Source: Cucumis sativus
Lineage: Eukaryota; Streptophyta; Magnoliopsida; Cucurbitales; Cucurbitaceae
NCBI RefSeq assembly: GCF_000004075.3
Contig: NC_026658.2
Span: 620,001-684,000, forward strand
DNA length: 64,000 nucleotides
Direction of reading: 5' to 3'
Below, in pieces: positions 3,899 through 33,300 of this stretch. A program made the translations under genes and the position numbers. The notes under the pieces were generated by a model, which was not told where the DNA came from, made no database searches, and worked only from the letters and a program-made list of their open reading frames with translations. Numbering within the stretch: position 1 is the first letter of the stretch; every line of letters starts with the position of its first letter.

Positions 3899-5516
3899 TG
3901 GAACCATTGGGGAGTTAGCTGTACAAATCCAAATATTAGTTTCTTTTAGGACTTAATAATTGAGTTTAGAATGAGAAGTTATTTGAGGAGATTGGGTTGT
4001 AAAAATCGTTTGAATTTATGGATTAATGAAGAGCATTTGTTGAATAATTCTTTTACAAACAATTGGTTAAACTCTCCTGCATTGGTGGGAGTGGTTAATG
4101 AACAAAAAATATCTTTCTCCTTACGAAAAATAATAAAGAAAGGGTTCTTTGTTTTTGTCTTTCCCTTCAGCAACAACCAATAAGTTCCCACAAGTTTTCT
4201 CGTTCTTGGGATAATGGCAAAGAAGATCACATGTGTTGCTCGAGATTTGATTGATTGAGAAAGAAAAAGAAAATTGAAGAGACTCGGACAAACCATTGAT
4301 GGTGAGAAGAAGCATTGATTTGGGTTTCAAAGACAGAAGAGGTAAGAAGAAGATACGAGAGAAAAGAAGAGGTAGTGTGTGGAGAGAACCAAATGGTAAG
4401 AGAAAGAGGTGTAATTTATGACGAGTGGAAATTGGGTGAAATAGAATTGGTTGAAAATGGTGGGAATAGAATAGGATTAGATTAAAATTGGGCCTAAAAC
4501 CATCAATCCAAAGTCAGCTTCATATTACATACCAACTCTCCAACACAAGGACTACTCTAAAACTACACTCTTATACCTTAAACATATACTAAAATCAACT
4601 ATAATCAAACTTTAAACTTAATTAAATAAAATCATGAATAAAAAAAACAGTGGCAAAATAAACTAAACTTTCACAAATAAAAATTAAAAGATAATATATC
4701 ATAACTTTTTTAAAAAATAATTACGTTATAATTTGTTATGATTATGATTATTTTTATTTGTTTAATATATTTTTAATACCATATTTTGTTAATATATGAG
4801 ATTTTTTAAAGAATTAAAAATTAAAAAAGAAAAATATGTATAATTTTGATTAAGAAATAATTAAATTAAATTTTAAAAAATGAATTTAATAAGAAAAATT
4901 GAAAATTGAAGATTGAGATATCTAAATATATATAAAAAAAGAATAATAATAATATATATAAATAATGAAAAAAAGTAAAAATAAAATAATATATATAAAT
5001 TGGACCATTCCTCTATTTTTGACCAATTTCCATTATCTTTAAAAAAAAGTTCCAAATATCAAATGCAATCTACAAAATTTCTTAAATTTTGCCAAATAGT
5101 TAAAGATTTTGCTACTTTTTAAACGAATATTTATTTATTAGTAGCTGTGAATGGGAAAAACTCCCAAACTTAATCTATATAACCCCATCATAATTAATGT
5201 TTGATGTAAATATTAAAGTTTTAAAGAAATTTGTAGAAATGTTTAGAGCTTCAAAATTCAAACTTTTATAAAAATCCCAAACAAAAGTTTGAAATAATAA
5301 AATTAAAGCTGTTTTTGGGAAAATTCGAAGGAGAGTCCCAGAAAGGGGAAAACCATAGAAAAAGCTTTGTTGTTGTTCATCTTCTACAATTCCTTCCGGT
5401 GATTCCATTTCCAGTTTCAAAAATCGCCAACATTCTCCTCTTCTCCACCCGAAGGATCATCGAATTTCTATTTTTTGCTTCCATTTCTTGCTCCGGAAAC
5501 TGTTCAAGTTGCCCTA
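3899..5516. other. Intergenic region and 5' leader of the next gene
   Basis: Holds the 3' end of the DUF761 transcript, then very AT-rich DNA (4600-5250) with (TA)n and A-runs, then the CT-rich leader of the gene starting at 5517. Minus-strand open frames here are low-complexity. No independent gene was recognised. Confidence 0.5.
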
Positions 5517-15857: not shown

Positions 15858-18800
15858 TCATGACAAAAGCCAAGAAATCACCGCCTCCGATTCCGATTCC
15901 GCAACCGCAATCCCAACCCCACCTCCGAAATCTTCTCCGGCATCCCATTCTATGTCCCCCGCGAAGCTTTCCCAGTTCCATGGACTGTCAAGACTCATCA
16001 AGGATGAGCTGCTTATGGAACTACACTCACCGCCCACCTCCATCTCTGCCGGAGCAATGGAGACATGATCGGTGTTGCTTTTGCACGTGCCAGTTGTGAT
16101 GAACTTATGAATTTCATCCTCGTAGTCTTCCACGCTTGTCAACAACTCATCCAAGTCCAACGACATCTCGTCTTCTTCCCAAACATCATTATTCAAATTC
16201 ACTGTAACAGACCCACCAACGTCATGTCGTCCTTCTGGCGTCTTCTTAATAATTTCCTCTTCCCTTACCTCATCCACACATCCCCCACACCCACCACTCT
16301 CTCTCTCCATCTCCGACGTCAGCGGCGACGGAATCTCCGACTCTTCCTTCCTCCTCCGCCCACGTCCCCCCTTCCGCCGCGGCGGGAGGTTGATCCTGGC
16401 CACGTCCACAATTACCGAGTCCCCATCATCGTTCCGACGCCGGAACGTTTGGATTTGTCGACTTAAATGCGAATTCCAATAATTTTTAATCTCGTTGTCT
16501 GTTCTGCCTGGCAAGTGGCTTGCGATCAAAGACCACCTATAAAATTTCCAAAAAGAAAAAACAAATCAATTAATTGATTAAAACAAACTACAAGCTAATG
16601 GATTATTTAAAATGATCATCTTGGTTTTTTCCTCCTGTGCTTTACGCTGTTCTCGATTTGGTAAGAACAAAATTTTAAAAAAATAATAATAATCACGTGA
16701 CATATGTATTCCGAAAGTGGAGAGAAGAAAATGGTAAGCAATGCTCCAAAAAATGATTCCATTTTCCATTTTATGAAAAGAAACAAGAAACTTGGGAAAT
16801 TGACAAAAATAGGCCAAAAATGGGGTATAAATAGAGTTTTAGGATTGATTGTAGAAAAGTTGAGATTTAGGATAAATTGGAGGTGAAATGACGAAAATAC
16901 CCTCTTTTAATTTTAATTCACATTTGCTCTTCTCTTCTTTTCCAACCCCTCTCTCTCTCTCTTCAATGTCATTCACGTGAAGAAAAAAAACAGAATTGCG
17001 AACGCAGCCTTCTTCTCCTCTCCTCATAGATTACGTAAAGGGAAAAAAAAAGAAGAATCCTTCTCTTGCAGTCTCATAGATTACGTAAAGAAAAAAGAAG
17101 CATTTCTCCTCCTTCTCATAGATTATGTAAAGGAAAAAGAAAAAAGAAAAACTCATTTGCGATTCTTCTCCTCTCTCAAAAGTTTGTCAACTTTCCGCTT
17201 TACTCCGGTGTCGTTCATCATCTACTCCGGCGAACATCTCACGCATTGTGGTTTGTTTTAATTTTTAAATCCGAATCTGAATTGTGTTGTGTTATATGTA
17301 TATATATTTTTGCATCTTAAATGTATAAATCAAATATTATTTTTTATTGTTTCAAGTTGATTTAGGGTTGATTTAAGGTTGCTTTATAGATGTTTCAAAT
17401 GATGTTAGCAATTTATCATTATTATTATTTTATCTCGCAAACATCTGGTAGACATCTCGCAAACATCTCGCAGACATCTTGCAGGTTCTTAAATTGAAAT
17501 GTTTAATCTGAAATGAATTGATTTAGGGTGACTTTTAGCTATTGTTTTTTGTATCTCGCAATATCCTAAACATTTTGTAGCTGTCAAGATCGTAAACATG
17601 TAGGGTGTGACTATGCACGTTTTATTTAGTATTTACCTACTGTTTTTTAATAAACTTTGTTTATGTGATATGTCAAATGCTAACTTCAAATCATTTTTTG
17701 CAGCAATTGAAAAGTATAAGGTGGTTTAAGGATGTCACATATTCCCATGTTAGTGCGTTACGGTGGTATGTGGGATGAGAGGCGAAGAAAATACGAAGGA
17801 GGCATGTTAAAAGGCATCGTTGTCAGTAAAGAAATAACACATAAAGATTTACAGGCAGAATTATATGACCTTGCAGAAGTTGACCCTTCAAAGTTCGACG
17901 TAATGATAAGATGCATATATGAGATAAAAGTGGAACACGAAGCTCCTACATTTGAGTTAAGCAATGACCGTGATTTGAAGTTTTATCTTCTTAGTGAAAA
18001 TCCATTAAAGGTCCCTTTATACGTCTCATTTGAGCCTAAAAGTAATCAAAGCAAAAAAGTGTTAAGCAAAGATTACAATTCAGTATCTGGCAGCAACCAA
18101 GCTCATAACTTAAACCCTCATCCTCCAATTGTAATGGATACATTAAATGAGAATGAAGTCCATGTTCGTGAAGTTGAAGTTGGCTTGTGTGATAACGTGA
18201 TAGGGACCACTTCGGCTATATGGGAATCATATGAGTCATATGATTCGAAAGATGAGACTTTTACATGGGAGCCAGTAGAGATGAATAGTGAATCATTTGA
18301 CATCCCACAACATAGAGATGGTCCTACAAAAGATTGCAAAGGAAAATCTAAAGTTCGTTACAGCTCTTCTAGCCAAAAGTTGAAGACAGACATGAATGAT
18401 TGGTCCGAAGAAAGCTCTACAAGTGAGGAGTTTGATGTAGGACAAATATTTTTTTCCAAAAAAGATTTGTCAATGAGATTAAGTGTCTTGGCAATGAAAA
18501 AAAATTTTCAGTTTGTAGTAAAAAAGTCTACAAAAGAGGTTCTCTTTGTTAGATGCATTGACAACAAGTGTGGTTGGAGACTGCGAGCGATGAGATTGAA
18601 GGATTCAAATATATTTAAGATTAAAAAGTATGTCAAAGTTCATTCGTGTTCTCTTGACGTTTTGAATCGTGACCATAGGCAAGCAAAATCTTGGGTTGTT
18701 GGAGAATTAATAAAGTCAAAGTTCAAGGGAGTCGGTCGTCTATACAAACCGCGTGATATCATAGAAGACATGAGGCAAGACTATGGCATAAATATGAGTT

Positions 18801-21800
18801 ATGAAAAAGCATGGCGCGCTAGAGAAAATGCGTATGAACGAGTGCGCGGGTGTCCTGAAGAGTCATATAATCTATTGCTTAGATATGGTGAAGCTCTCAA
18901 ACTTGCAAATGTAGGTACAATATTTCACATGGAACTTGAAGATAATCGTTTCTTCAAATATCTTTTTATGGCTGTTGGTCCATGTGTTCGAGGATTCTTA
19001 AACTGCATTAGACCGGTTATAGTCATGGATGGAACATTCCTTAAGAACAAATATCGGGGTCAGTTGATAGTTGCTGTTTGCTTGGATGGTAACAATCAAA
19101 TTTATCCTCTTGCCTTTGGAGTGGTGGACAGAGAAACAGATGCTTCAATACAGTGGTTCTTAGAGAAATTGAAAGGTGCAATAGGAGAGGTGCCTAATCT
19201 AGGCTTCGTGACAGATCGAAAAACATGTTTTTCTAAGTGTATTGCATCGGTTTTTCCCTCCGCATTCCATGGACTTTGTGTCCAACACTTGACTCAAAAT
19301 TTGAATGATAAATACAAGAATGACACTATAGCTACTTTGTTTTACAATGCATCTAGAACATACCGTGAATCAACGTTCTCAGAAGCGTGGAGAAGTATTC
19401 TTGCATTTCCTAATGATTCAGGAAAATATTTAAACGATGTTGGAATAACACGTTGGTCTCGTTTTCACTGTCCAGGAAGACGATATAATATGATGACAAC
19501 AAATATAGCAGAGTCCATGAATTCTATACTGAAAGAACCTAGAGATTTGCCTATTGCTTCATTCCTTGAACATGTTCGAGCTTTGCTACAACGTTGGTTT
19601 TGGGAGCGTCGAGAAGAAGGCATTAAAGTGACGTCTACATTGACTAAATGGGCAGAGTTAGTTCTACAAAAGAAACAAGAACGAGCTTTGACAATGAAAG
19701 TCAACCCAATTGATTGTTACCAATTCCATGTTAAAGATTTAGATAAAGAGGAGGTCATAAATCTTCATACTCAAGAGTGCACTTGTAAGGAGTTTCAAGC
19801 TGAGCAACTACCATGCGCACATGCCATTGCTGTTGCACGGGATCGCAATATAAATGTTTATAGCTTATGTGCTAACTATTACACTAATGAATGTTTGTTG
19901 GCAGCATATTCGGAGGCCGTCTACCCAGTTGGGAATCAGTCGGAATGGAAGACAACCGAAGAATATGTACATATGACTGTCTTACCTCCGAAAGTAGTCA
20001 AAAGAGTTGGTCGACCGAAGAAAAAGAGGATTCCAAGTGTCGGTGAAGCACCAAAATTGCATAAATGTGGTCGATGTAAAGAAACAGGCCACAATAGATT
20101 AACGTGTACCAATCCAATTTCATACATCCAGAAGTCGAGCATACAAGATTAGTACCCGTCTTGGTACGTAGTAATAGTTTTATACTTGCTTGGTTTGTGC
20201 TTGCGTTGTTTGCATGATCACGATGTAAAAAAGGTTCATTTTTTTAATGCAGGTGGAAGATGCTTATAAAATTGTGTCCTGTGTTGTTTGCAAGATCACT
20301 AAAGTCATCTCACTGACAATTCTAAGTTGAAGACTTTTCTTCTGCAACTTCAAGACTTTCCTTCTCTTTTTTTTTTATCCTACAGTGAACTGTTTATAGA
20401 ATATTTACTCCTTTGGCATTTCAAGCTTTTTGAGAAAGACTTGAAATCCTATTATGACAATATTGTGTGCTTTAGAACTCAATAAATGCTCTCCTTTTGC
20501 TACTGCAGTATTAATGATGCAAATCTTGCTGATTACTTTTAGTTTTTACATTCATCTTCAAGGTTCAGCCTCTGTTAGTTTTTACAAGGTTCAGCCCTTG
20601 CTGATTACTTAAAGGTTCAGCCCTTGCTGCATTTGAAGCCTCTTGCTGATTACTTAAAGTGTGTGCAGTAGTAATAAATGCAAAGCTTTTGCTACTTTTA
20701 GTTTTTACAAGGTTCAGCCTCTTCAAGCATATGAACCACCATTTGCATGAAGGGCCTTGTAGATGGAATCTTAGTCGTGCAGCGAAGTGCGACGATCCTT
20801 ACCACTTTGACTGCGTTCTCCACTTTGATATGCTGGGATCTACCATCTCTTTCAGATTACCTTTTAGATATCTCATTCTGCTTTCCTGTTGTTTTCCTGG
20901 CAGTTGTCTTAGAAAATGGGCTTCTTTTATGTTGGTACTTCCATTAGAACAACTCCAAAGCTGCAAAGAATAATGTTTGAACAATCCATGAGAAGTAAAT
21001 AATATTGTGTGCTTTAGAACTCAATAACTGCTCTCCTTTTGCTACTGCAGTAGTAATGATTCAAATCTTCAAGCATATGAACCACCTCTTCAAGCATAGT
21101 AATCTCAAGCATAGTAATCTCAATGCAGTAGTAATGAGTTGACTCTGAAAGTTCAGGTAGTAGCAAGACTGAGCTAATTTTATAAGTAATGTATAAAGCC
21201 GGCTGGTTAACAGCAAAGGTACAGAACAAGACACAGATCAAAATGCTGCTATTGGTAATGAGGATCAATTGTTCGTACATAAGATGTTTTTATAATGAAA
21301 ACCTGCTACGTGAGGCTATATATAAATCAGTTCCGCAGCCACCATAAACCTCTGCTCCACCACCGGTAACACATCAAGAATGTCTATATAAAAGTTCTGC
21401 ACACTTTACAATTTTTCACCTGCATTGTTGTACATTATATAAAAGTTCTGCACACTTTACAATTTTCCAAGATAATGAAATAAAAATTGCATACCAAAAA
21501 ACAAAAATGGTCTTCATTCCATTATATAAAACTATTTATGTACATAGTTTGGAACATATACAATTCCTTCAAAAGTTGAAACTGAAAGTCAATACATGGG
21601 ATTGTTGGTCCATAATTGAAATGCCAATTGTTTTCTAAAATATGACATGTTTTCTTGACATAATGTAGCTACATCTAAACCAGAAGCTTCATATTCGAAA
21701 TACTTAATTGTAAATACACCACAATCACTATTGTTGCGTTGAAGTGGAATGGAGTCGACAATGACAAGTGGCCAAGGTTCCTTGTGTGTTGATGATCCGC

Positions 21801-24800
21801 CTCTCCTAACAAAGAATCCAGTAGCATCGAGCAAATTTGGCACCATCTCTTGAATTGGCTCTAATATGCTTCTCATATCTTCGGCACTCGTCAGCGACGG
21901 AAGCGAATCCCATACCTTAACTTGACAACGTACCAAGTCCAAGCATAATAGAATCCAATGATTGCCATGGATATTGAATGGAGAGTAAATGTAATCAACA
22001 TTCACCCAAGGATCTTGACAGTCTTGTTTTGATCCGACAACATAGTCAACCAACCGATACTCCTCCTTCCAGTGAAATGGTCGATTCTCTTTAATACATT
22101 CTTGGTATTCAGGCCACTTCGCAACTAATAGTCGCTGGAAGGAAAAAAAACACACATGCATGTATACAATGAGCGGCCCATTAAAGATTATATTCAGATC
22201 CAAAAAGTGGCCGAACTTTGTATTTCTAAATAAGGTTAATTGATCCGGTTTCAATTTAGCCTTTATTGTACGTGTACTGTTTTCTAAATGTGCTAAACTA
22301 CTTACTATAGACTGAAAATGATGAGCAGGGTCAATCTTGTACATGGGACCGTTAGTTGATGTCGAAGCCATACTGAGACCTGCATAAAAAAAAAAAAACT
22401 AATTAAATATAATTGCATAAGAGACTTACTTAACATGGATGCACTAGCATCTTGGGACTTCTACTCAAAATTTTGGAAGGTGAGAGATAGGTGCTGATAG
22501 GTGAGAGATGATGAAAAACTTCAAGGCAAAGTTGCTAAGTCTAATAGAATTGCTAACCCTATAGCCTTAACACCTAGTAGACTAGCTAAACATGCATTCT
22601 AAACCGTTTAGGAAGTTTACACTCTTATATTGGGACTTCTACTCAAAATTTTGGAAGGTGAGAGATAGGTGCTGATAGGTGAGAGATGATGGAAAACTTC
22701 AAGGCAAAGTTGCTAAGTCTAATACAATTGCTAACCCTATAGCCTTAACACCTAGTAGACTAGCTAAACATGCATTCTAAACGGTTTAGGAAGTTAACAC
22801 TCTTATATTGGGACTTCTACTCAAAATTTTGGAAGGTGAGAGATAGGTGCTGATAGGTGAGAGATGATGGAAAACTTCAAGGCAAAGGAAATGGTCTTTC
22901 AACAATGCAGCTTATGATAATGTCTTTAGAATACAATATTTAGAATGCATGTTTAGCACATATCTATTGTACTGGTAACTTTGCAGAGTTTATATGGGAT
23001 ACCAAATATATGTTCGAATTCAAGTTCTAAACTCCAAGGTATGGTTTTTCTATTATTACAGTACATTGCAAAGGAAATGGTTTTTCTTCCTAAAAACAGA
23101 ATGGCTCCCACGGTTCTCTATGTCTGTGTGCATATGACATGCATTTCTTCTCCAAAATGTGCCAAAAACAAAAAACTCACATCTTAACAGACAACTTAAA
23201 CAAACAAGATGGAATACTGTAATAATAAATAAGCTACAACAGACTAACTCTAAAAAAAAAACTGAGATTTTATTACTCACTTGACTTCAAAGATGATGGA
23301 TACGGCACTGCCAATGTAGAGGAGTGGATAAGAAATGGAGAGGTCCGGTGAAAACAAACCTGAAATCGAAATGGATGGAAGTGGAGAAGCGTCCGCCGGA
23401 GATGAAGTCGAAATGGAGACCCGTGCAGAAGAAATGGAGACGTTCGGTGAACAAGTTGAAATCGGAAAATATAGCGGAGAGTCGTGAAGAAGAAATGGAT
23501 GGAAGTGGAGAAGAAATGGACGGAAGAGAAAAACGTTCACCGGAGGCGGGAGAGAGTTGAAGAGGGTAACTGCAGACGCGGGAGAGTTCAAATGCGAGTT
23601 TACGTTTTTCTTTTGAACGGCCTTCTGTCTTCGGGTTGAAGAAAAGGAAAAAGAAGAAAAGAGGAAGGAAAATAAAAGAGGGTATTTTCGTCATTTCACC
23701 TCCAATTTATCCTAAATCTCAACTTTTCTACAATCAATCCTAAAACTCTATTTCTACCCCATTTTTGGCCTATTTTTGTCAATTCCCCAAGAAACTTCAA
23801 TAGCGTTCTTCCTACTTGCATCAATTTTTTAAGAACTAAAGATCTCCGCGTACTTTATTCTATCATTTATTGTTCTTAAATTTCTGTAAAACCCTATTAC
23901 ACTTACAAGACATCAATTCAATGAAGTTGTTTTCTCTTTTAACTTCTTCAAAATTTACAGACTGAAAATGAAATCACCAAATGGGTTAACTTAACATAGA
24001 AAAAAGAAAACACCAATCGATGAATTGTTTTTTTCCCTAACTCCCAATGGAAGAAAAGTTAAATACTGATTTAATAAATTAATTATGTCTCTCTAGTTTA
24101 TGTATACTCATGTCGTCATTATGGCCTTTCTCTGTCACCCTCCTCTTTGGTCCACAGAAAAGGTCAAGAAAAAGTTATTGGTTTATTTATTTACCTATTT
24201 ATTATTACTATCTTCCTTTTATTATTTCTCCTCGTGAACAGCACAAAAGAAAATATTAACTACAAATTTGAACTTCAACATCGTATACTTTTCCCATTCA
24301 ACCTTTATACATATATATTTTTAAGGTATAATATTCATAAAATATATTTTAAAAAATGTACATCAATACTATGTTCAATGAAAATAACCCTCATATTTTA
24401 TTTATTTTAACATGTGTAATTTAAAATACTCTCAAATATTTTCAAGTTTTTCAAATAACTACCATTATTTCTGAAAGAAATAAAATATTTATCTATTCAA
24501 ATATCGAAAAATATAGTAAAATGTAAAAAAAAAAACAAAAAACCAAAAAATATTTATCACGATCGTTCTATAATTTAAATTTAAAACGTTTGTCCAATAA
24601 ATTACCTGTTTCCAAGGGAAGCATGAAGCTTAATGATGACATCTTCTTCTTCAGATGTGATGTTCCCTCGTTTCAAATCAGCTCTCAAATAGTTAATCCA
24701 TCTCAGTCTACAACTTTTACCACATCGGAGAAGACCTAAACACACATTAACAATAATAAAAAATAGTTAAGAATCATATGAAGGTTGTAGTTTTTAACAT

Positions 24801-24996
24801 TAGGTAACATATCTTTAGTAAAGTATTTTTTATTTTTTTTAATGGGAGAGGTATGTAACGAACCTGCATTTTTGGGGAGAGATCTCCAGGAGCCTTCACC
24901 ATTGGCAAGTATATATTTTTTCAACCGGTCATCTTCCTCCTCCGTCCACCGCCCCTTTTTCAGACCAACTTTATCACAGCACGGCCTTCTCCCCAT
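15858..24996 (-). CDS. R2R3-MYB transcription factor, subgroup 7-like (flavonol regulator type)
   Basis: Exons 24996-24864 (133 bp), 24735-24606 (130 bp) and 16536-15858 (679 bp) join to 313 aa. The 133 and 130 bp sizes are canonical for plant R2R3-MYBs. R2 has W17, W37, W57; R3 has I70, W89, W108; the start is [17 protein letters not shown]. The repeats most resemble subgroup 7 (MYB11/12/111), which activate flavonol genes without a bHLH partner; the R3 bHLH-contact motif is indeed absent. The C-terminus ends ISWLLS, matching the subgroup's terminal W-L-L-S motif. The other subgroup motif (GRTxRSxMK) is eroded: after PPRRKGGRG comes RRRKEE. The middle is acidic. Intron 2 is 8,069 bp because a 6,995-bp Mutator element lies in it; the splice sites and frame are intact, so a full-length mRNA is possible if the intron is removed. 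A gene symbol cannot be fixed without orthology. Confidence 0.88.
16785..16793. repeat. Target-site duplication, left copy
   Basis: AAGAAACTT, directly abutting the left TIR; identical to the copy at 23789-23797. Confidence 0.92.
16794..16909 (+). repeat. MULE left terminal inverted repeat, 116 bp
   Basis: Begins GGGAAATTGACAAAAATAGG and ends CCCTCTTTTA. It matches the reverse complement of 23673-23788 at 114 of 116 positions; the differences are at TIR position 4 (A/G) and about position 35 (T/G). Long TIRs of this kind usually carry the promoters of MULE genes. Confidence 0.92.
17023..17132 (+). repeat. Three spaced copies of an 18-bp subterminal motif
   Basis: CTCATAGATTACGTAAAG occurs at 17023-17040 and 17073-17090, with a one-base variant at 17115-17132, spaced by A/G-rich filler. 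Each holds the palindromic core TTACGTAA (degenerate in the third). It lies between the left TIR and the transposase leader; repeated subterminal motifs are often transposase-binding sites, which would be an inference here. Confidence 0.6.
17732..20152 (+). CDS. MuDR-type Mutator transposase, intact
   Basis: An 806-aa uninterrupted ORF. Domain order: N-terminal PB1-like segment of plant MuDR proteins (about 1-103); DNA-binding MuDR domain with a Cys/His zinc site (about 232-308, including [11 protein letters not shown] and HSC); catalytic MULE domain from about 425, with first Asp in VMDGTFL (about 431), second Asp in FVTDRKT (about 494), the C-x2-H pair in GLCVQHL, and a Glu in TTNIAESMN (about 593); SWIM zinc finger [18 protein letters not shown] (about 683-700); C-terminal zinc knuckle [14 protein letters not shown] (about 778-791). 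Length is normal for an autonomous MULE transposase. A likely splice acceptor (TTTTTTGCAG) ends at 17703, 28 bp before the ATG, suggesting an intron in the leader. It acts on the TIRs to cut and move the element. It reads antisense to the host MYB gene. Confidence 0.93.
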   Translation: MSHIPMLVRYGGMWDERRRKYEGGMLKGIVVSKEITHKDLQAELYDLAEVDPSKFDVMIRCIYEIKVEHEAPTFELSNDRDLKFYLLSENPLKVPLYVSFEPKSNQSKKVLSKDYNSVSGSNQAHNLNPHPPIVMDTLNENEVHVREVEVGLCDNVIGTTSAIWESYESYDSKDETFTWEPVEMNSESFDIPQHRDGPTKDCKGKSKVRYSSSSQKLKTDMNDWSEESSTSEEFDVGQIFFSKKDLSMRLSVLAMKKNFQFVVKKSTKEVLFVRCIDNKCGWRLRAMRLKDSNIFKIKKYVKVHSCSLDVLNRDHRQAKSWVVGELIKSKFKGVGRLYKPRDIIEDMRQDYGINMSYEKAWRARENAYERVRGCPEESYNLLLRYGEALKLANVGTIFHMELEDNRFFKYLFMAVGPCVRGFLNCIRPVIVMDGTFLKNKYRGQLIVAVCLDGNNQIYPLAFGVVDRETDASIQWFLEKLKGAIGEVPNLGFVTDRKTCFSKCIASVFPSAFHGLCVQHLTQNLNDKYKNDTIATLFYNASRTYRESTFSEAWRSILAFPNDSGKYLNDVGITRWSRFHCPGRRYNMMTTNIAESMNSILKEPRDLPIASFLEHVRALLQRWFWERREEGIKVTSTLTKWAELVLQKKQERALTMKVNPIDCYQFHVKDLDKEEVINLHTQECTCKEFQAEQLPCAHAIAVARDRNINVYSLCANYYTNECLLAAYSEAVYPVGNQSEWKTTEEYVHMTVLPPKVVKRVGRPKKKRIPSVGEAPKLHKCGRCKETGHNRLTCTNPISYIQKSSIQD
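20153..21588. other. MULE middle region between the two convergent genes
   Basis: Holds the 3' ends of both element genes. A repeat of about 69 bp occurs at 20459-20527 and 21001-21069 with only a few differences, and short phrases such as ACAAGGTTCAGCC recur between 20560 and 20720. A more complex stretch at 20740-20950 has an open frame of 66 codons on + with hydrophobic residues that I do not recognise; it could be captured host DNA. Confidence 0.5.
21589..22371 (-). CDS. ULP1-like (C48) SUMO-protease-type protein of the MULE
   Basis: A 260-aa ORF on the minus strand. Seen: the C48 order of catalytic residues, His in [14 protein letters not shown] (about 143), Asp in KVWDSLPSL (about 162), Gln in [11 protein letters not shown] and the nucleophile Cys in SDCGVF (about 224). 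An N-terminal part with [12 protein letters not shown] and FNGPLIVYM matches the leader region common to plant transposon-borne ULP1 proteins. Length suits a lone protease domain. ULP1 enzymes mature SUMO and remove it from targets; what the transposon-borne type cleaves is not established. The ATG is 8 bp after a strong acceptor (ATGCAG, exon from 22379), so an untranslated leader exon probably lies upstream, ending at the CAA|GTGAGT donor at 23281/23280. It is convergent with the transposase and in the same sense as the host MYB. Confidence 0.88.
   Translation of the reverse strand: MASTSTNGPMYKIDPAHHFQSIVSSLAHLENSTRTIKAKLKPDQLTLFRNTKFGHFLDLNIIFNGPLIVYMHVCFFSFQRLLVAKWPEYQECIKENRPFHWKEEYRLVDYVVGSKQDCQDPWVNVDYIYSPFNIHGNHWILLCLDLVRCQVKVWDSLPSLTSAEDMRSILEPIQEMVPNLLDATGFFVRRGGSSTHKEPWPLVIVDSIPLQRNNSDCGVFTIKYFEYEASGLDVATLCQENMSYFRKQLAFQLWTNNPMY
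22380..23280 (-). other. Probable leader intron of the ULP1 gene
   Basis: The donor GTGAGT (23280 downward) and the acceptor TTTTTTTATGCAG (ending at 22380) frame a 901-bp intron on the minus strand. Joining does not extend the ULP1 frame upstream, so the leader exon is probably non-coding. The intron contains the 178-bp tandem repeat. Confidence 0.55.
22453..22887. repeat. 178-bp tandem repeat, about 2.4 copies
   Basis: Units start at 22453, 22631 and 22809 (TGGGACTTCTACTCAAAATT), giving an exact 178-bp period. Two copies are complete; the third stops after GGCAAAG at 22887. The copies differ by only a few bases, so the array is young. It lies within the MULE, in the probable ULP1 leader intron. 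Confidence 0.9.
23324..23560. repeat. Degenerate short repeats in the ULP1 leader
   Basis: A purine-rich phrase close to GAAATGGATGGAAGTGGAGA recurs several times with variation. Open frames on both strands here are repeat-driven (Ser/Pro-rich on -, Lys/Glu-rich on +) and I do not call a protein. Confidence 0.6.
23673..23788 (-). repeat. MULE right terminal inverted repeat, 116 bp
   Basis: Reverse complement of the left TIR with two differences. Its outer end is GTCAATTCCCC. It probably contains the promoter of the ULP1 gene. Confidence 0.92.
23789..23797. repeat. Target-site duplication, right copy
   Basis: AAGAAACTT, directly abutting the right TIR. Confidence 0.92.
23798..24605 (-). other. 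Remainder of MYB intron 2, 5' part
   Basis: AT-rich intron DNA between the MULE and the donor of exon 2 (GT at 24605-24604). A + open frame of 87 codons at 24147-24410 is AT-driven and not called. No other element was recognised. Confidence 0.6.
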
Positions 24997-27312: not shown

Positions 27313-30300
27313 CAGACTTAGATTCTTTTAGTTTGAGAAAGTGTTTTGGTGAGTAACTTGAAGGTGGTTGAGTCAAGAACTTTTGTCATAATAGTTGAAA
27401 ACATGACTTCCTACCCATATAACTTTAATAGATAAATTTTGTTACACAATAGACAATGATGAGGTGCACACTACTCTTCATTTTTTTTGAAAAAAACAAA
27501 GACTCTGCCATAAGACGATTTTTTTACATCGGAAAACTCTTTGTGCTGCACAAAGATATGTGCTGTCTGGGGAGCAACTGATTTTTCTTTTCATTCAAAT
27601 TTTAAAAAATAATAGCATTACTATACTAATACTAAAAGAAACATGTACAGGGAAAGTTTATGCAAGATTGAAACTTTAACAGCAACAACATATCTCAAGA
27701 ATAAATTGTCACTTACTAAGATTAATTAATTATTTCCTCTTGGTACATGAATTAACAATACAGAAGGATGTTGATTTAGTACTGAATAAACCATCTCACA
27801 CAATAATACATGTGCAGCTCTAAGACGAATACTACTTGGATTTAAATAGCACATCCATAAAACACAGACCAATCACAGCCTAACAATCTTATACCACAGG
27901 ATAAAAAAAGCATAACTTTTATTACTGTTAGAAGAACAGTAATTAATGGAAAATGTTTATTACAAATTATATTGATTACAATGATATAAGTACAGTTAAA
28001 AGGCACTATATCCACTGTCCACTGAGCTTATTAATACAACATGAATGAAACCAGTAATGATATGTAGAGATTTTTTTTACCCTATTGATGGTGTGTCCAA
28101 ACTTGTAATTTAATTGTCACATCACATATTAAAAACCCTTTCAACCATACCCTTTTGGAGGATTGTGCCCTTTTTGTACAATACACATATTATATTTGCA
28201 GCTTTTTTCTTTTGGCAAAATATATGTCCCATGAAATATTGTCCACTCCAATGTTTGAGGTAAAAGAAAGAAAAGGAAATTGAAGGTTTTGGAGCAGTAC
28301 CTCTCATCTTCCATTATCAATCATTTGTTGTTTTTCACATTAAGTAGCAGCACGAGGGTGGTACCAAGTTTTAACTTTGCCAATTCTGTCTATGGATTCC
28401 TCAAAGCCTCACTTATTAGGAAACAGTAAGGAAAAAGTGGTTGCACTTGGATTGGGCTATCTTTTATGCATCTCAATTTACCTTTAAATTCAACAAAATT
28501 CACCTTCTGATTTTGTTTTGTTTTCAATTTTTGCATCTAACCATTGCTTGAAACAGTATATGTTTTCGTTCCAACTACTTTTTAAGATTATTGAAACAAT
28601 TAGCAGATAATCTTCACGTTTGTATAATAAAAATTGTATCAAATGACAAAAAAATACATTTAGATTATGACATCACATTTAAATTTACTACTTTTGCTTT
28701 TTTGTTGTTGTTATTTTTGCAAAAGTCCATTTATATAATACAATCAACACAACTTAAACTAGAATATGACACAAACAACTTTTAAATTTGGAAAAAAATT
28801 CTTTTAAAAAGTTTGAGGTATTTGGTAATTAATTTTTCAAAAAACTGATATTGAAAACAATCTATTTTGAAGAGCACTCAATACTAAATTTTTTAAAAAT
28901 AGTTTTTAAAATAAAATTATACATATAAAAACATATATAAAAAGTGCTAAGGCAAACATATAAATACGCAAGTGTCTAAATTTTAAACTCATTTTAAAAA
29001 AAAGTGTTTACGAGAAAGAAATATTTTTTTTTCATAGACAATCCAAACGTCCTCTTAGTTAATTATATGAGCGATTAAAGTATAATTGTAAAACGTATAT
29101 AAAGAAATCATGAGAAAAGTTTTATAAAATATAAATGGTTTTTTTTTTCTTTAGTATATATTTGAGTTAATCAATTGTTATCATTAAAAGTAGTATTTAA
29201 GAATTAGTTCTACGGAATGAGTTAATGAATTAATAAATCATTAGATGATGACCTATGTTAAATAGTGAATTACTATTACAATTATACTATAAGGTTTTTT
29301 TTTTCTTTCTAGAAAACATCACAACAAATTATGACCTATGTTCATGTTGTGCAACAATTTCTTTTTCAAAATTCCTTTTATCTTTTGTCCCTTGAGAGCA
29401 CAATATAGATCTAGCTTTCGGAACTGTTGTCAGTGATAGAGTCTATCATGAATAGAATTAATGATAAGGTTTTTTATATTTATAAATCGTTTAAAATGTT
29501 GTTATATACTTGATTAATTGTTAATAAGTGTTTCTCATTGCAATCATACTAAAGTTTCTATATCACCAAGTGTGTGTTTATGAAAGATCACTTTTATCAT
29601 TTTCAAAATATTTCAAAATACGTTTTCACTTTTTCAAAACTAATTTCAAATCATATGAGAGTGGTACGTAAATACCTATAAAAATGATAAGTACTAGATA
29701 AATTAAGAGGGGTTGACGAATTAGTTAATTTGGAATGGCTTTAAATATGATAAAAGCAATCCATCACTACCCACATAAATCCAAGAAGAAAAAAGTGATA
29801 TATATATATATATGTGAAAGAGTTGAAAATGAATCATGAATGCTAATTGGAGTTGGAGACCAAAAGAAAAGGAAAAAGGAAGAAAAAAAAAGTTGAAAAG
29901 CAAAGATGTTGAGATCATTTTCAATGTATTTTTTAGAGGAGCAAACAAAGTGAAAGAGAGCTTTATGAGCCATAGGAATTAGGACCCTATTGTCCTTTTG
30001 TGTGTTCCCTCTTTGTGCAAAATTATTAAACAATACATCTTTTGTAGGGTAACAAAATAACCTTTGAAGAAGAAAACTAACAAAGAAAAAAAAGAGTGGA
30101 GAAGTAAAAAGAAAAAAGAGGAAAGAAAGTAGTGAATAAATTTAAAGAACTTAACAAGTCATGGGAGAGTTATGTTTCAAAGATACTCAATTTATGGCAA
30201 TTGTGTAGACAACGTTGGAAATGACTTTAGGCTAAAGAAAATAGCCTATAAAAAGAAGTTAAGAAATAGATACTACGCCCAATTTCACAGAGTAAGATTT

Positions 30301-33300
30301 TGTTTTGACAAAAAAGAGAATAAATGCAGAGACTTCTTGGAATAGATAGATTTGGATAAACTTACATGTAAAAAGCTACAAATAACCTATTACAACTACC
30401 ATTTTATAAAATATTTCCAAATTTAAAAGCTAGCATCATCATCTTTTTCTTCTTCTTCCACCTATTTTTCATTCGATTCCAATTTGTTTATGAAGAGTGC
30501 ACTCACGATCAGATGTTGTGCTAACCTTGGGGAATGACCGGATTTTTATTTTCAAACTAGTAGATTCATTCTGAACATAACGATATGCAATATTTAATAT
30601 AATCCTTACAAACCAAACATAAATTTTAGCAATCAAAATAGTTATCAAACACCACCGTTTCAAAATCTAATACGCCTTTGAAGAGAATATGGAGAGAGCG
30701 TTATTATCCATGGCTTTTAAAAATTAAACATGTAATAGAAATCATTGTTGTTTTATAAAATTCAAAAAATTCAAAACAAAAACGTCCATTCAATCAAAGG
30801 TTAATGAAAATTTAAGCCAAAAAGAAAAAGATGAAAGCTTCAAGTAGTGCATTTTAGCCCTTTGAGTGTAATCAATCCAACTCATGTCGATCTTAATTAG
30901 TTGATATTGTCTCCATAAGGTCAAAGATTTGATCCTTCTATTTAAAGATTGGTAGTACTCCAATTCATCCCAACGAAGTTGGTAATATATTTATTTGAAT
31001 GCAAAGCGTAATTTGAATGAGATTTCAATTTATGAGCGTGCAAATTTTCAATTTAATTATTGACACATGTTTATGAGTTAATATTGACTAGATGATATGT
31101 AATTAGTGATGATCTAAGATTTAAGATTTTGGTTAGGTGTTAGATTGATTGATCAACAATTGAATTATTAGTATTAGGATTGGTCCATGTGTAGGTTTTC
31201 GTGGCTTTTTCCACAACCTCATAGCCTACCATGATAAATTCTAATGAATAAAGAAAAGGGCAAAGTTAGTTAAGTGTAGTTATATCTCCAAATTTCCTAA
31301 AATTGGTATCTAATTAATATACAACAACACCATCTACCCGATTCATTGATTAGATATATTACTAGAAGAAGAAACAAATTATTATGTAATGTAATCTTAA
31401 AAAAACATATATACAACTTTATTCATCATTAATTTAGAATACATTTGAATCGATATATGAAAATTTTGTTTTAAAAGAAATGAGAAGAAGAAAGAAGCAA
31501 AGTGATTGTGATTTTAGAGATTCTTGTCCTATTTGATGACTCAAGAGATGAGCCATAAATATATCTCTCTATTCATTAGATTGTTGTATTTAAACCCATT
31601 CAAGTTTATACGTATATGATCCATCTCCAAATTGTCAATTTAGTATTATCAACTATTTGTCGTTTACGATTTAGAAGTCATCGTCAAACGCATAAATGAG
31701 AATATAACTAATCACCGAATTATAAGAAAAAGAAAAACTAGGGTGTTGAGAAAGTACGCTAATTAGCACACACTATAACACGCTAAAGTATGAAAAATAA
31801 ATATTTTTTATTAGCCATTTTGTTAAATGAACCAATTACCCATTCATATCTAAATATTGCTCAAATAAAAAAAAAATGTCATTTTATTTCTTCAATTCCC
31901 ATAATTATTCAATAATATAGTAAAAGTTGAGGTAAATAATTCTCTAATATTCTATTGTTGGATCTTTATAAGAAATGTAGTGTGTTAATGACATGTTCAC
32001 ACAAAAATATTCCAATAATGAACTTTAATTTTGTGTGTAGTGTAAGTTTCACATTCAATTCTTGAAAGCCATTTTCTGATCTTCAAATTACACTAATATT
32101 GAAGTGTCTTTTGATCATAAAAATTAGAGTTATCGTTAAACATACCGAACTAATCAAATCAACTAATGCAATGTAGCTTTTTAAATTTAAATTTATTAGA
32201 GTTTATTGAAATGTTTTGAATTTGTTATCTAACACTAGAACAACAAAATACGAGAACATTATTTCGTTATAATTAAATTTTGTACCTATCTTTTTGGAAA
32301 AAATTAATCTTGTGTACATTCTTTTTCTTATTTAATTTTGATAGTATGTTACAATTAGAACATTAAAGAAAATTAAAATGAATTTAATATCAGTTATCTA
32401 GAGAGTTCTTATTTTTATTAGTTATTAATTATAAAATATACCATATTATTATTTTATTTGTTAACAAATATCCTTGAAATATGTTATGATCGCTAGTTAT
32501 TTTTTCGAGAAATATTCACTTTCTATATGAAACTTCTTCTAACAATGTATGTAATTTAGGGTTATAATTGTAACAATTACCATATTTTAAAGAATGATTT
32601 TGTAATTTATCGTAACATTATTATTACATAAGGTATATATTTGCAAAATGACTAAATATACCTTAATAGATGTAACGAAGTAAGTGATATAATAGAATAT
32701 ATATAGTAATGAGATATAAGGCCCAATCCAAAGTAATATTAGGGAAAAGTTTCATTCTATTATTTCAAACAAACTTATATTATATAAGATTTTACAGATG
32801 TTTAAGAATTGAAGATGATTATATTAGTTTTGCATGAAAAATGCTATCAGAATTTAGAAGGTTTATGTCAGGTAGGTCATAAGATGTTTATTTTTTGTAT
32901 ACATATCTTTTTGTATTAGCAATGAAGATTGTTGATATGAATATAAAGTCGTAGCTGCACATTTCGTATATAGATTTATAGAATTAGACTTATTCTGTTT
33001 AAATATATATTGAATAGCATGATAGCAACATTTTTGTATTGTAAAAGTATTTTTCAAAATGTTATAGTTAGCAAAAATCTACAAACAATACTCTGTTTTA
33101 AAAAAATATTATGGATTTGTTTTCTCTTAGCAATAAGATCAAATTAAAGTGGGCCTGTAGAGTTACATGTGGATGCTGCCCCAATCAGTTGAGAAGAAAG
33201 ATTGGAGTGGGCTGGGGGGGATTGTTGGAGATCACAATGGGGTAAAGAGAAGAGAACAAAAGATCGACAAAATAAAACAATATTGGAAAATGAAAAGAAG

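Follow-up and report, generated by a model that had tools for sequence, protein, structure and literature searches.

The CsMULE insertion in intron 2 of cucumber CsMYB60: a probable deletion derivative of a young, multi-copy Mutator-like element family

Results and Discussion

The window examined in this study is a 64,000-nucleotide stretch of the cucumber (Cucumis sativus) genome, C4:620001-684000 (contig NC_026658.2, forward strand), and genome-wide searches covered the 226.6-Mb assembly to which it belongs. It contains a Mutator-like element (MULE) of 6,995 bp at positions 16794-23788, inside intron 2 of the R2R3-MYB gene CsMYB60. The element corresponds to CsMULE, whose presence in this gene and whose phenotype had been described before. 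What is added here is that the copy at this locus has undergone an internal deletion and belongs to a young family of many copies, the longer members of which would encode a protein resembling anti-silencing proteins. Taken as a whole, the combination of a published insertion, a deletion derivative and a silencing-linked reduction in expression is the best explanation for the locus, and one in which we are very confident. The anatomy, the recency and the deletion come from the present analysis; the lower expression, the promoter methylation and the white spines are taken from published work, and the route of the deletion and the link between element and methylation are what we infer.

Correspondence with the published insertion

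CsMYB60 lies on the minus strand and has three coding exons (exon 1 at 24864..24996, exon 2 at 24606..24735, and exon 3, including the stop codon, at 15858..16536) with GT/AG borders and a 313-aa frame, its coding sequence being intact despite the insertion. The protein ends in SWLLS, an ending that we take to be linked to the AtMYB11/12/111-type subgroup. Intron 2 measures 8,069 bp, or 1,065 bp after subtraction of the element and one target-site duplication (TSD). A first-pass annotation of the same DNA had placed the element between exons 2 and 3, with matching splice sites and frame, and had given the same growth of the intron, and both observations held. The annotation had also raised the objection that exon 3 might belong to a different MYB locus, and the presence of many near-identical element copies, which can confuse assemblies, could favor a misassembly joining another gene's exon 3 to exons 1 and 2. 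However, a search with the spliced MYB protein (127 of 250 candidates scored) listed 10 matches at E<=1e-30, and among these the locus itself is the only one to cover exon 3 fully, with the remaining nine covering the conserved MYB repeats at 62-73% identity. In addition, the frame and splice phase fit, and allele sequencing in several independent lines has revealed this insertion as well (PMC6305189), which largely disposes of the objection and leaves misassembly extremely improbable.

The element is flanked by a perfect 9-bp direct duplication, AAGAAACTT, at 16785..16793 and 23789..23797. Inverted-repeat search and end comparison identified terminal inverted repeats (TIRs) of 116 bp at 16794..16909 (plus strand) and 23673..23788 (minus strand), which agree at 114 of 116 positions, the mismatches being TIR positions 4 and 35. 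A single open reading frame (ORF) of 806 aa (2,421 bp) at 17732..20152 on the plus strand encodes a MURA-type transposase with Pfam matches to MULE (2.7e-20), DBD_Tnp_Mut (9.1e-10) and SWIM (4.9e-07). The transposase (by its MULE and SWIM matches), the 9-bp TSD and the 116-bp TIRs are those of a MULE, a class with TSDs of 8-11 bp and long TIRs. The duplication, the TIRs and the transposase had been recognized in the first-pass annotation, with coordinates that were exact to the base.

According to PMC6305189 (2018), CsMYB60 is the cucumber black-spine (B) locus on chromosome 4. Nine white-spined lines, including 'Chinese Long' 9930, carry a 6,994-bp insertion in intron 2, 1,492 bp past the transcription start site (TSS), and five other white lines carry a single-nucleotide polymorphism (SNP) that changes Arg to a stop codon in exon 2, 617 bp past the TSS. 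Five black lines are unchanged relative to the black line RNS9, the wild cucumber allele is similar and without ORF change, and the site is empty in black-spined lines with the exception of two (Table 1 of PMC6305189). The gene is elsewhere listed as CsaV3_4G001130, alias HEUKCHEEM (PMC11219412), and a phylogeny places it near the flavonol regulators AtMYB11/12/111 (PMC6305189).

Codon 67 of the window's exon 2 is CGA (C at 24670), and it is taken to be the published stop site because, of the two CGA codons in exon 2, only this one fits the published distances: 875 bp past 24670 is 23795, within the TSD at 23789-23797, while a count from codon 48 would miss the TSD by dozens of bases. If codon 67 is indeed the one meant, the published C-to-T stop allele is absent from the window. 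It is because the published distances match that the insertion is regarded as already known. The published element, named CsMULE, resembles the window element in gene, intron, insertion point, 9-bp TSD, TIR length (printed as 117/115 bp), MURA gene, and size to within 1 bp. In contrast, a second gene, an internal deletion and sister copies go unmentioned in the parts of PMC6305189 covered, where 'ulp1' occurs once, in the reference list.

A truncated second gene

The longest sister copies that span both ends measure 9,155, 9,157, 10,029, 10,051 and 10,393 bp. Compared with these 9.2-10.4-kb sisters, the window copy is missing 2,173 bp inside a second gene, a DUF1985-Ulp1 gene of which a 260-aa ORF at 21589..22371 on the minus strand is the remnant, as judged by Pfam and sister comparison. 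The first-pass annotation had taken this ORF for an intact protease gene and the element for apparently complete, and neither claim survived the comparison. The ORF joins approximately 66 first-exon residues, through roughly a dozen residues of presumed intron, to the last, catalytic exon (exon borders as inferred from sequence). At the deletion junction lies a 5-bp microhomology, ATGAG, at 22169..22173 (element positions 5376-5380), the flanks of which adjoin in the window copy but are 2,173 bp apart in sisters that keep the stretch (2,172 bp in copy L034). Both deletion edges are the same, each with ATGAG, in all five checked copies retaining the stretch, namely four long sisters and L034, itself lacking part of MURA. 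Genome-wide, the junction is found at a single place at up to two mismatches (none for a reversed-pattern control), and the undeleted left edge at 25 places, 23 of them exact and two with one mismatch (two for the control).

The detailed structure of the second gene comes from a single sister, C3:9294106-9303260, in which a first reading frame of 275 aa contains DUF1985 (PF09331, 6.7e-16) and the last exon holds the part matching peptidase C48. This DUF1985 falls in the part missing from the window copy, from which a WLADE piece and a following HLDALFLL piece are also absent; we take these two stretches to be the front of the Ulp1 domain. Pfam searches of two further open stretches of the sister's gene returned no family, the WLADE piece had no match of its own, and DUF1985 and C48 alone are search-supported. 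In the window copy, the fusion ORF has a peptidase C48 match at 1.5e-25 and keeps the stretch that aligns with SENP1 in its catalytic part. Together with an open MURA identical to that of the sisters, this would suit a 7-kb MULE that is complete and autonomous, its transposase and its Ulp1 protease both working. However, the C48 match begins only at profile position 36 of 217, DUF1985, WLADE and HLDALFLL all lie in the missing part, and the absence of 2,173 bp already contradicts completeness; this alternative is therefore very unlikely. The window copy is instead best regarded as a deletion derivative with a truncated protease gene, incomplete because of the internal deletion in the DUF1985-Ulp1 gene and without the complete family gene set by which an autonomous MULE is recognized. 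Autonomy is possible for it, since MURA is intact.

The window copy is proposed to derive from a MULE of approximately 9.2 kb belonging to a recently active family, with MURA on one strand and the DUF1985-Ulp1 gene on the other. Its insertion created the 9-bp duplication, and at some point earlier, at the same time or later, 2,173 bp would have been lost between the two ATGAG repeats in the manner of interrupted gap repair. The copy retained both TIRs along with an intact MURA, and most of the second gene was lost. A second contiguous match to residues 1-260 of the fusion ORF (81%, three stops), at C53:198270-199031 (L052), was considered as an older copy of the fusion and rejected, its break points being different. 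It represents a separate deletion within the DUF1985-Ulp1 gene, since decayed, which likewise fused the first and last exons.

Upstream of the second gene's start, a repeat search identified a 178-bp tandem array of three units (22442..22975). The array ranges from three to 16 units across 11 sisters counted (L023, L027, L032 and L034 among those that vary), with three units in the window copy and three sisters and 16 in L027. Short degenerate direct repeats resembling AGTAGTAATGA occur at 20459-21150, between the element's two genes. No family reached threshold in an Rfam scan of the window.

Sister copies and age of the insertion

The transposase search yielded at least 65 matches (56 of 854 candidates scored), of which 17, including the window copy, span all 806 aa without a stop. 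Twelve fetched loci (the window copy and 11 others) share the 2,421-bp MURA ORF without a single difference. A search with the 117-bp left end (40 of 346 candidates scored) listed 40 matches, of which 24, again including the window copy, are 100% identical. Seventeen copies, the window copy among them, had both ends read, and their TSDs are exact over 9 bp in 16 and over 10 bp in one; this sample consists mostly of the least diverged copies, leaves out one-end-fetched and most older copies, and counts one duplicated insertion twice among its 16 non-window members. Because exact direct duplications also flank these 16 other copies, the window TSD is not attributed to chance.

Several individual sisters can be set beside the window copy. 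The copies at C1:10580260-10590310 and C1:11389199-11399227 have a common TSD and common flanks (556 identities, 0 mismatches and 8 gap positions in the left flank), and the pair represents one duplicated insertion and not two, arising either as a recent segmental duplication or as an assembly duplicate. At C1:19177481-19185345 the TSD has the same letters as in the window, and the flanks are different. Other family copies bear different internal deletions; one of 3,846 bp (L008, on C3) has both TIRs, an intact MURA and a 10-bp duplication and is without the second gene.

The first-pass annotation had argued for a recent insertion from the similarity of the two TIRs. Of the 11 sisters compared, 10 share the mismatches found at positions 4 and 35 of the TIRs (exactly those two in nine, plus a third in L034; the older L021 has a single different one). 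The two mismatches therefore carry no age signal; TIR identity was rejected as a clock, since the two mismatches were inherited and predate the insertion. The claim of recency itself stands on different grounds. Over the 6,982 bp (5,368 + 1,614) aligned outside the deletion, the closest sister, C3:9294106-9303260 (9,155 bp), has no substitution relative to the window copy and differs by 8 bp of small indels; the other long sisters show one to three substitutions in the parts compared and shorter or older sisters up to dozens. The upper 95% bound on the split of the two closest copies is approximately 31,000 generations if a rate of 7e-9 per site and generation is assumed, or 14,000-43,000 at other rates, and is a rough one because repeat polishing in assemblies may mask differences. 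Based on the lack of substitutions relative to the closest sister, the insertion is recent, which agrees with the finding that most black lines and wild cucumber lack it (PMC6305189).

Similarity to anti-silencing systems

The arrangement of DUF1985 and Ulp1 beside a transposase, as in VANC/KIU genes, is present in the one sister tested, C3:9294106, and the window copy is without DUF1985. An Ulp1-bearing MULE of melon was reportedly described under the name CUMULE (van Leeuwen 2007). Elements of this kind from melon, Arabidopsis, rice and grapevine likewise combine a transposase with an Ulp1-domain gene (PMC13317346), in contrast to the window copy, which keeps only both ends of that gene. DUF1985 is one of the two domains marked in the Arabidopsis VANC proteins, anti-silencing proteins encoded by transposable elements whose targets are often tandem repeats (PMC5735166), and VANC genes with an Ulp1 domain have been termed KIUs in a review (PMC13317346). 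VANDAL elements with VANC/KIU genes thus resemble the CsMULE sisters in having a second gene with DUF1985 (one copy tested) and an Ulp1 domain as well as variable noncoding tandem repeats (PMC5735166, PMC10398659, PMC13317346). They differ in that their TIRs are missing or short and degenerate, although some relatives have TIRs (PMC6446971), compared to 116 bp in CsMULE. By analogy, it is possible that the lost second gene was an anti-silencing gene, and that the window copy still has the noncoding repeats of such a system in its three 178-bp units. The motifs of Arabidopsis VANC21 and VANC6 were found 0 times in each of three noncoding parts of the window element, a result that neither supports nor contradicts a diverged system. 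The motif AGTADTAAT, which occurs four times between the genes, a count reached in 0 of 200 shuffles, was discarded as evidence because it had been chosen post hoc.

Effect on CsMYB60 expression

The first-pass annotation had anticipated an effect on a pigment regulator, and published data bear this out: CsMYB60 is expressed less in a white line, and its promoter region from -6362 to -4578 is more methylated (PMC6305189). Expression is probably lowered through silencing of the element and methylation affecting the locus, and transcripts that end within the 8-kb intron, or splice it poorly, could add to the effect. Alternatively, RNA processing may be the main cause, in which case the element would supply sense-oriented poly(A)-type signals, or splice sites, that cut the transcript short, and methylation would be secondary. 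The remnant Ulp1 gene is oriented as CsMYB60, and the element contains 11 AATAAA/ATTAAA hexamers in the MYB sense (AATAAA at 23274, 22267, 17626 and 17348), both of which are compatible with this possibility. However, chance alone would produce hexamers of this type in AT-rich DNA, the count was made without a chance control, and a methylation change has been reported (PMC6305189). A predominant role for RNA processing is a tentative alternative, less probable than silencing.

Several observations weigh against the overall explanation favored here, in which a deletion derivative lowers CsMYB60 expression through silencing. The element is 1 bp off the printed length (6,995 versus 6,994). In two black-spined lines, RNS14 and RNS15, the insertion is accompanied by a second one of 2,759 bp, indicating that the insertion alone is not always enough (PMC6305189); the site of this extra insertion is at approximately 24434 (853 bp past the TSS as placed by the published SNP), where the window has no such insertion. 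In addition, the published methylation difference maps well away from the element, at 4.6-6.4 kb upstream of where the gene starts (PMC6305189). A genome search with the methylated stretch, which skips simple repeats and very common words, gave a single match, the stretch itself, and simple spread from the element is not supported. A transposable element underlying the stretch (29574-31358 if the count begins at the ATG at 24996) was also considered and rejected, since in this search the whole stretch matches itself alone.

A more specific version of the silencing explanation treats white spine as an epiallele. Once the VANC21 transgene has been removed by segregation, RNA-directed DNA methylation (RdDM) re-methylates noncoding parts of VANDAL elements (PMC10398659). 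By analogy, a CsMULE copy that had lost its VANC/KIU-like gene would have no self-protection in cis and would be methylated by RdDM, dragging CsMYB60 down with it, and intact sisters or the genetic background may restore expression in trans, which might explain the black spines of RNS14 and RNS15. As a full causal account, this scenario is unlikely.

In the literature searched, CsMULE appears by name only in PMC6305189, and no report was found of the deletion or the DUF1985-Ulp1 gene of this family, or of a VANC-type system tied to a crop trait; subscription papers (e.g., Planta 2019 on HEUKCHEEM) and the supplements of PMC6305189 were outside the search. If the step from deletion to silencing is true, it would provide a reason for a methylated, weakly expressed allele, and if the epiallele reading is true, a VANC-type system would be linked to a crop trait. 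The sister copies in the same genome are built-in controls for asking whether the loss of its own anti-silencing gene turns an intronic insertion into a silencing allele.

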